Source of the DNA: JACRDV01 sp024860865 [NCBI: Methanobacteriota archaeon]
GTDB lineage: Archaea > JACRDV01
Direction: 5' to 3'
Assembly: GCA_024860865.1 (NCBI GenBank)
Contig: JACRDV010000047.1
Span: forward strand, 1-13,478
DNA length: 13,478 nucleotides
A program made the position numbers and the translations under genes. Below are positions 8,908 through 10,833 of this stretch, piece by piece. Position 1 is the stretch's first letter. Each line of letters opens with the position of its first letter. The notes beneath the pieces are model-generated. The model had not been told where the DNA came from. It saw only the letters and a list, made by a program, of their open reading frames with translations, and searched no databases.

Positions 8908-10833
8908 CTATTGTGCCAAAGCATCAATTTGTGCATCAATTTGTGCATCTCTGTAGTATCGCAGAGTTATTGAGCTCGAAGGACAAACACCGGCACAAGA
9001 TCCACAGCCCTTACAAAGAATTTCGTCGACTACTGCCTTTTGGTTTTCAATTCTGATAGCATTGAAGGGGCAAGCATTTGCACAAAGTCCGCAGCCAACA
9101 CAGTTTTCTGTATCTACCAAAGCGCGAATGAGTTCAATTTCGACCTTACCTGCTATTAATGGATGTAAGGCAGTGACAGCAGCTGCTTGAGCTTGTGAAA
9201 CAGCATTAGCAATTGATTTTGGCCCAGCAGCGCACCCGCAGATAGAAACACCATCTATCCGTGTCTTAACTGGAGCCAATGCATAGTGGAACTCTTTAAA
9301 AAAGCCATATGAATCGATTTCAAGTCCAAGCATATTAGAAATTTCTCTTGCGCTCGGGTTCGAAAGCATAGCAGTTGATAGAACAACTAGATCTACTGTA
9401 TCATTGATTAATGTTTGGCGTAAAGTATCTTCGGCGTATATAGTCAGGCTCCTTGTTTCTGGGTCCTCTAGTATCTGGCCTATCTTACCCCGAACGAATT
9501 TAATGCCGAAGTCTTTTGAACGCATGAAGTATTCTTCGTTTAACTTTTCTTCTGCTCTAACATCGATATAGTAGATAGTGAGTTCGATCTCAGGATGATG
9601 TTGCTTGACGAGAGTTGCATTTTTTATTGCTACCATACAGCAAACAGTGGAGCAGTAAGGTTGAGAACGCAGATCTCTTGATCCGACGCACTGTATGAAG
9701 GCTATTTTCTTCACTTTTTTGCCGTCGGAAATCCTTACCAGTTCCCCTTCAGTCGGTCCGTTTGGGCTGAGAAGTCTTTCAAGTTCAAACTCTGTAATCA
9801 CATTGGGATAAGTGCCATATCCATAGTAACTTGGCTTATAAACCTCGAGTCCAGTAGCCACGATAATTGTTCCAATCTCGAGTTCGATCTCTTGTGGTTT
9901 TTGATTGAAGTCAATTGACTTTTTCTCGCAAACAAGTTCGCAACTTCGGCACTCTGTGCAAAATTCCTTTTCAATCGCATAGATTGCTGGAACTGCTTGA
10001 GAGAAAGGTAACCCAATTACCTTCCTTGCCCCTAGATTCGCATCGAATTCGTTTGGAATCAGCACTGGGCATTTCTCTGAACAAAGTCCACAGCCATTGC
10101 AGGTCTTCTCATCGACATACCTTGGGTTTTTCTGGATTTTTATGCGGAAGTTGCCGACATAACCGGTGATCTCTTTTACCTCGGCGTTTGTAATTAACTG
10201 AACATTTGGATGCTTTGACGTCTCCACCATTTTTGGAGCTAGAATTCACATTGCACAATCGTCAGTTGGAAAGATCCTGTCGTATCCTGCCATTCTTCCG
10301 CCTATGCTGGTTTTTTTCTCCACGAGGTAAACTTTGAATCCTCGGTTGGCAATATCGATGGCAGCTGTCATTCCAGCTATTCCTCCGCCGATAATTAGTG
10401 CTGTAGGTGTTACTGGGACTTCCTTTATTGGCACCTCTTCTAAATTTTTGGCCCTAGCGATCCCGGCCTTGACCAAAGAAATTGCTTTATCAGTTGCTTC
10501 CTTCGGTGTCTCTCTGTGCACAAATGAACAATGTTCCCGCAAGTTTACCATTTCAAAGAAATATTGGCTCAACCCAGCGCGCTTGAGAGCATTGCGGAAT
10601 GTTATTTCGTGCATTTTAGGGGTACAAGAAGCAACCACAACTCGATTTAGTCCCTGTTCCTTGATGTCTTTGATAATACCGTCCTGAGAAGGATCTGCGC
10701 ACATAAAGGTCTCACTTCTAGCCACCGTTACACTTGGAATCGATTTAACTGAGTTCATAACTTGCTCGACGTTCACTATACTGCCAATGTTAACTCCTCA
10801 TTTGCAGATGTAAACTCCCACTTTGGGTTCCAT
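8908..10833 (-). CDS. hdrA: HdrA selenoprotein with two selenocysteines
   Basis: 641 residues, the normal HdrA length, when UGA at 10800-10798 (residue 12, ICKUGVN) and 10248-10246 (residue 196, DDCAMUILAPK) are read as Sec. The Cys paralogue at 4344-7379 has CHCG and DCSMC at these sites. Other features are FAD motif GGGIAG (149-154), inserted ferredoxin cysteines from Cys245/248/251/255 onward, and C-terminal CVGCGLCANACP and CKGCGSCAGVCP clusters. HdrA bifurcates electrons at its FAD; HdrA is a known Sec protein in Methanococcales. ATG 10833 follows a strong AGGAGGT (10845-10839) with 5-nt spacing. Reading frame and homology continue through both UGAs, so sequencing error is very unlikely. 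The stop is TAG at 8910-8908. Confidence 0.93.
8921..8949 (-). repeat. 12-bp tandem repeat at the 3' end of Sec hdrA
   Basis: The plus-strand unit gcatcaatttgt occurs at 8921-8932 and 8933-8944, followed by a partial gcatc (8945-8949). In the protein this is a repeated DAQI tetrapeptide just before the C-terminal LAQ. It is in frame (12 bp), lies after the last Fe-S cluster, and looks like recent slippage; no function is implied. Confidence 0.85.

Follow-up and report, generated by a model that had tools for sequence, protein, structure and literature searches.

A 13,478-nucleotide stretch of archaeal DNA (contig JACRDV010000047.1 of the Methanobacteriota archaeon JACRDV01 sp024860865; hereafter, the window) carries an hdrA gene with two in-frame TGA codons, followed in the same operon by an mvhD gene that also contains two. 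These codons are much best read as selenocysteine (Sec), because the genome also encodes SelB, a PSTK-like kinase, a TGA-bearing SelD with an evident eSECIS-like hairpin, and other TGA-bearing hdrA and mvhD genes. Taken together, the data are probably explained by a double-Sec HdrA and a double-Sec MvhD with a probable shared Sec insertion sequence (SECIS) element, with both Sec residues of HdrA on one interface cluster and a host outside the Asgard archaea.

When TGA was translated as Sec (U), hdrA formed a single reading frame in which the only internal stops were the two TGA codons, at residues 12 (CKUG) and 196 (DCAMU) (Table 1). A long HdrA paralogue in the same gene cluster has Cys in both motifs (CHCG and DCSMC). 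These results agree with a first-pass annotation of this DNA, which had seen two in-frame UGA codons at the Cys sites of the paralogue and expected naive annotation to fragment the gene. Indeed, translation table 11 splits hdrA into two separate open reading frames (ORFs), 10776-10246 and 10230-8908. That annotation was right about the two TGA codons of hdrA but covered this gene only and overlooked the adjacent double-TGA mvhD. Both TGA columns of mvhD (residues 12 and 63) held Cys or TGA in six of six aligned MvhD proteins. With TGA columns counted as Cys, 29 of the 641 HdrA columns and 5 of the 138 MvhD columns are Cys columns, and the chance that all four TGA codons of the two genes landed on such columns is about 2e-6.

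The hdrA product belongs with the soluble HdrA proteins, having the N-terminal Fe-S, thioredoxin-reductase/flavin adenine dinucleotide (FAD), inserted ferredoxin and C-terminal ferredoxin parts, and similarity over its full length. Residues 2-639 could be aligned with five solved HdrA sequences, and the domains detected were NAD_binding_8/Pyr_redox_2 and Fer4. The NCBIfam model NF040770 scored 845.2 bits, below its curated cut-off of 1100, a threshold intended for longer proteins that end in an MvhD part; other NCBIfam HdrA models scored lower and likewise stayed below their cut-offs. At the codon level, the gene has the signature of the HdrA selenoproteins (CxxU), with TGA at the equivalent of Cys197. 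The mvhD product scored 153.7 bits against NCBIfam VhuD, below the cut-off of 215.

The first-pass annotation was unaware of any earlier case of Sec in the CxC motif at the N terminus. At the DNA level this view does not hold, since TGA was found there in many other HdrA genes. A contig scan across genomes gave 54 loci, and the 20 named ones (L011-L030) were mapped: 7 had TGA at residue 12 (Jordarchaeia and Helarchaeota) and 10 had it at residue 196. The latter were all from Asgard archaea (Jordarchaeia, Helarchaeota and Sigynarchaeota); two of them were cut before residue 12, and one had TGC there. Ten bacterial fused HdrA loci (L040-L046 and L048-L050) of the Deltaproteobacteria/Syntrophobacteraceae kind carried TGA in the position of residue 196, with Cys at residue 12. 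In a census, 201 of 227 genomes matched the window protein at an E value of 1e-150 or better (a partial list, from which six genomes without a match are omitted); we identify the census phylum as Asgardarchaeota because one match (genome G142) shares its contig coordinates with the named Helarchaeota locus L014. The 30 best matches to the window protein among the matches listed (L129-L158) had TGA at residue 12 in 29 cases, at 196 in 30 and at 70 in 4, fractions that are not prevalences. At least two genes are common to the named and census sets (L011 = L129; L014 = L136).

We also mapped 20 further Asgard loci, 17 chosen for at least three TGA codons and 3 as TGA-free controls, so that these fractions are not prevalences either. 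TGA was present at residue 12 in 17 loci and at residue 196 likewise in 17; the counts for residues 70, 45, 295 and 298 were 16, 12, 3 and 2. Four-TGA HdrA genes (12, 45, 70 and 196) were found in 12 loci among L267-L281, and one gene has five (also 298). Across the mapped HdrA loci, the TGA sites were 12, 45, 70, 196 and, rarely, 295 or 298; no TGA was found at residue 10 in the 70 loci. In the literature searched, we found no account of an HdrA with Sec at its N-terminal position; supplements and the 2016 Lokiarchaeota paper, which may record it, lay outside the coverage. A 2026 review assigns HdrA a single Sec in its table (PMC13188914). As read from their codons, the four- and five-TGA Asgard proteins would have more Sec per HdrA than any in the literature searched.

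The window HdrA shares the domain composition over residues 2-639 with one-Sec HdrA proteins (NF040770 CxxU, PMC13188914; PDB 9sfi/9t1s). In PDB 9sfi, the equivalent of residue 196 is a non-standard residue (X), which we take as Sec, but its residue 12 is Cys, where the window gene has TGA. With the multi-TGA HdrA of Jordarchaeia, Helarchaeota and other Asgard families, the window gene shares the clade and the TGA codons at 12 and 196; in the named loci L012, L013, L017 and L018, hdrA is likewise followed by a double-TGA mvhD. In contrast to those genes, the window gene comes from a host outside the phylum and has a tract (residues 211-300) probably converted by the neighbouring paralogue, whereas many Asgard hdrA genes carry extra TGA codons at 70 and 45.

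The trees were built by FastTree, and re-rooting may have shifted their support values. When residues 144-545 of HdrA were used, the window hdrA grouped with its operon neighbour, a placement that was rejected when windowed identities exposed the probably converted tract. Over residues 211-300, identity is 76-86% with the neighbouring paralogue, compared with 33-63% with eight Asgard HdrA proteins, a pattern pointing to probable gene conversion with the all-Cys neighbour, adjoining the residue-196 codon. Residues 201-305 were therefore omitted from later trees. Without them, the window hdrA fell into a 58-member clade in which every member has TGA at 196 (support 0.998), and PDB 9sfi branched just outside it (0.955). 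When residues 306-641 were used alone, the TGA clade had a support of 0.818 and the 9sfi position 0.047. With an earlier sequence set and the same omission, a 14-member group containing the window hdrA was supported at 1.0. The position inside the clade varied among trees. The gene, with TGA at 12 and 196, is placed within the Asgard-type double-TGA clade.

The window is contig C147 of a metagenome-assembled genome (MAG) of 1.54 Mb that is 92.45% complete and 0.73% contaminated. SelB was detected with 297.5 bits (cut-off 242.25), its gene being truncated by a contig end, and SelD with 260.8 bits (cut-off 125) and one TGA in its gene. Together with a PSTK-like kinase, whose score stayed under its cut-off, they bear out the double-Sec HdrA of the first-pass annotation as the best reading; SepSecS and tRNA-Sec, which that annotation had also named as machinery to look for, were not found. 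HdrA matches bearing TGA occur in four places of the source genome: C147 (two codons) and C68, C132 and C55 (one each). In the fused hdrA genes of the latter three contigs, TGA occupies the codon equivalent to 196, and residue 12 is Cys. In the MvhD family, three of eight matches contain TGA, in C147 (two), C68 (two) and C132 (one). A second search, of hydrogenase type, gave one NiFe hydrogenase gene, without TGA. On 22 contigs of the source genome, TGA closes 57 of 215 non-overlapping ORFs with a minimum length of 150 codons. TGA is therefore otherwise a normal stop that is not reassigned as a whole, and this stop usage rules out a general TGA reassignment. Two tRNA-Sec candidates, on C134 and C152, were both tRNA-Ser, and ARAGORN found no tRNA-Sec on the contigs submitted to it. 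A SepSecS candidate on C74 turned out to be SepCysS-like; this gene (8894-7899, minus strand) is cut by the contig end.

For SECIS elements, 22 contigs (623,480 bases, both strands) were scanned with the pattern [A/G]UGA, stem, A-run, stem, [G/A]A, and three random sequences of matched length and dinucleotide make-up served as background. The top match lies directly after selD, with nine perfect pairs and a mini-stem (score 12.0; fold z -1.63), and the second best lies 5' of the C55 hdrA (score 11.7; z -3.18). The background gave no match of at least 11, a mean of 2 of at least 10 (8 observed) and 35 of at least 7 (38 observed). The window candidate has two stem mismatches and is favoured by its place at the mvhD stop and by a fold energy that 1 of 200 shuffles matched (z -3.20). 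C68 has a SECIS-like element over its mvhD stop as well (score 9.2; z -3.15), and a candidate 5' of the C132 hdrA (score 8.2; z -0.02) was no better than shuffles. Ten Asgard loci with TGA at 196 were inspected likewise: four (L011, L019, L024 and L030) have a candidate at most 50 bases after the hdrA match, and six have none there.

In Asgard archaea, a published element near the gene end is common to hdrA and frhD (PMC11227280). The candidates described here resemble these eSECIS-like elements in the AUGA/GUGA_GA core with an A-run, in the type II mini-stem after selD, and in an arrangement in which hdrA and mvhD would share a single element close to the end of mvhD. They differ from them in that the window element overlaps the mvhD stop and has stem mismatches, and in that the C132 and C55 candidates are located 5' of hdrA. 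In these two contigs, SECIS-like hairpins (near 9917 in C132; near 2463, minus strand, in C55) precede hdrA instead of trailing it. The C132 hairpin has the string AAACCTTTTAGGA in common with the selD element.

HdrA carries the FAD of the bifurcating MvhADG-HdrABC complex (PMC5861303), and its N-terminal Fe-S cluster is ligated by Cys residues of the N-terminal domain and by Cys197 from the other HdrA of the dimer (PMC9012536). Residue 196 of the window protein aligns with residue 197 of 5odc. In the five solved HdrA proteins, residues 10, 12, 45 and 70 are all Cys, and each of them is Cys or TGA in all 20 further Asgard loci. Since TGA occurs at 12, 45, 70 and 196 and not at 10, we infer that residues 12, 45 and 70 and the partner's 196 are the four cluster ligands. 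Because residue 196 corresponds to the trans ligand and the N-terminal domain, from which the other ligands come, contains residue 12, both Sec residues probably ligate one interface cluster. We propose that one operon yields both a soluble HdrA with Sec at 12 and 196 and a double-Sec MvhD, the two genes probably being served by one SECIS near the mvhD stop. This HdrA would function like that of the electron-bifurcating HdrABC-MvhAGD complexes; one interface cluster would receive one Sec from each HdrA subunit, and the Sec ligands may tune the potential of the cluster or its resistance to damage. Under the four-ligand model, 12 of the 20 further Asgard loci would have four Sec residues on one cluster.

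The host is a deep-branching, uncultured archaeon outside the Asgard group and is alone in its phylum within the genome set, which covers 97,973 of 199,900 species, so that further members may exist. All 60 relatives offered for it were related at the domain level only, a phylum-wide search returned the source genome alone, and neither these kinship tables nor an EF2-led tree placed it in Asgardarchaeota. In that tree (EF2, with EF1A, S7 and S12 where found; 41 taxa; EF1A, S7 and S12 rows of wrong length removed), its long branch lay among genomes from outside the Asgard archaea; the Asgard genomes themselves fell into two groups, as paralogues would, and it was in neither. If the window and the other TGA contigs were mis-binned from an Asgard archaeon, the selenoprotein gene would be real but the claim about the host wrong. 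In favor of this are the HdrA clade, which is otherwise Asgard in our sample, and the best single SelB match, which is Asgard (61%). However, the SelD and SelB trees place the source genome beside two non-Asgard Sec users, G022 and G043 (support 0.76 and 0.93). Furthermore, the tetranucleotide profiles of five Sec-related contigs correlate at 0.92-0.94 with the mean of 16 other source-genome contigs, which correlate at 0.87-0.96 among themselves; the short contig C55 (3.7 kb) reached 0.81, 13 Asgard regions at most 0.74, and 27 other archaeal regions at most 0.80. This agreement makes mis-binning unlikely. According to the 2026 review, archaeal Sec is limited to Methanococcales, Methanopyrales and Asgard archaea (PMC13188914); within the latter, it was reported in Jordarchaeia (PMC9723677) and in Atabeyarchaeia and Freyarchaeia (PMC11291895). 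The host looks like a further lineage of Sec users.

Several observations weigh against a double-Sec HdrA and MvhD. SepSecS was not found in the 92% complete MAG, where the sole match was SepCysS-like, and tRNA-Sec was not found there either (best matches 35.5 and 30.8 bits; cut-off 47). The PSTK-like kinase, on the SelB contig, scored 195 bits over residues 1-233 of 249, under the curated cut-off of 290.5, and the source assembly is a MAG in 160 contigs. For the window SECIS candidate, the score (7.2) is at the background level of the complete scan, and core bases are paired in the fold of minimum energy. In the earlier-set tree, the whole 41-member TGA clade had a support of only 0.491, and residue numbers for the N-terminal-domain cluster ligands were not found in the literature searched. 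The failure to find SepSecS and tRNA-Sec, together with the SepCysS-like gene, would fit decoding of TGA as Cys or another residue, either by a suppressor tRNA or by SepCysS completing the charged tRNA instead of SepSecS. Against such decoding, the source genome has SelB and a Sec-type SelD, and these two proteins are not known to have any use without Sec coding. Because a contig end truncates the SelB gene, adjacent genes can be missing; we presume that the missing SepSecS and tRNA-Sec reflect an assembly gap. The TGA sites are, moreover, the same as in Asgard lineages with published Sec machinery (PMC9723677), and we regard decoding as Cys or another residue as very unlikely. That hdrA and mvhD are decaying pseudogenes, or their TGA codons sequencing errors, is scarcely conceivable: the internal stops themselves and the recombination with the neighbouring gene could be read in this way, but the stops are TGA only and at Cys columns only, they affect both neighbouring genes, and they are found again in further operons of this genome and in further lineages.

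The remaining genes of the window are given in Table 1. At the contig end (13477-13148, minus strand) lies the C-terminal piece of a protein with a zinc ribbon, which we take to be TnpB-like. Beside the operon are a 5S rRNA gene (727-847) and a partial tRNA (240-293), both on the minus strand, the tRNA being apparently interrupted by an intron; ARAGORN reported no tRNA anywhere in the window. Elsewhere in the source genome, contig C134 has intein-like insertions in genes for ribosomal protein S12 and an RNA polymerase A''-like protein (10943-9003 and 14546-11970, minus strand).

Table 1. Positions of hdrA, mvhD and accompanying features in the window
Feature	Positions	Strand	Description	Basis
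hdrA	10833-8908	minus	641 residues, TGA read as Sec (U12, U196)	HdrA models and PDB HdrA chains
TGA codon, hdrA residue 12	10800-10798	minus	CKUG	translation
TGA codon, hdrA residue 196	10248-10246	minus	DCAMU; corresponds to Cys197 of 5odc	translation and alignment
hdrA residues 211-300	10203-9934	minus	probable gene conversion tract	windowed identities
mvhD/vhuD	8899-8483	minus	138 residues, TGA at residues 12 and 63	Pfam FlpD, 132 bits
TGA codon, mvhD residue 12	8866-8864	minus	CYKUG	translation and alignment
TGA codon, mvhD residue 63	8713-8711	minus	GUTKGDC	translation and alignment
SECIS candidate (weak)	8506-8469	minus	eSECIS-like, GUGA_GA core, A-run, mini-stem, over mvhD stop	
FrhB_FdhB_C and ferredoxin domain protein	8449-7376	minus		domain match
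Long HdrA paralogue	7379-4344	minus	1011 residues, two HdrA units fused, Cys in both motifs	
Second MvhD	4341-3937	minus	Cys form	domain match and alignment
FrhB/FdhB-like protein	11896-10844	minus		domain match
Ferredoxin and CCG-domain protein	12997-11897	minus	HdrC/HdrB-like	domain match

Standard gene calling fragments these genes, and multi-Sec HdrA is therefore easily missed; hdrA of Methanocaldococcus is likewise broken by gene calling (PMC12054007). TGA at residue 12 is common in unannotated Asgard DNA, and no description of it was found in the literature searched, whose coverage did not extend to supplements. We tentatively suggest, as a possible though doubtful scenario, a stepwise replacement by selenium of the ligands of the interface [4Fe-4S] cluster, with position 196 in trans changing first (as in 9sfi), then 12, and then 70 and 45. 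Some Asgard clusters would then be all-Sec, and the double-Sec stage would also exist in a non-Asgard phylum that mixes methanogen-side SelB and SelD with an Asgard-side HdrA and SECIS. If both Sec residues bind one cluster, the window HdrA would provide a natural system for studying selenium ligation of an Fe-S cluster in electron bifurcation. If true, a Sec-using lineage beyond Methanococcales, Methanopyrales and Asgard archaea would alter the picture of the spread of Sec coding among archaea.
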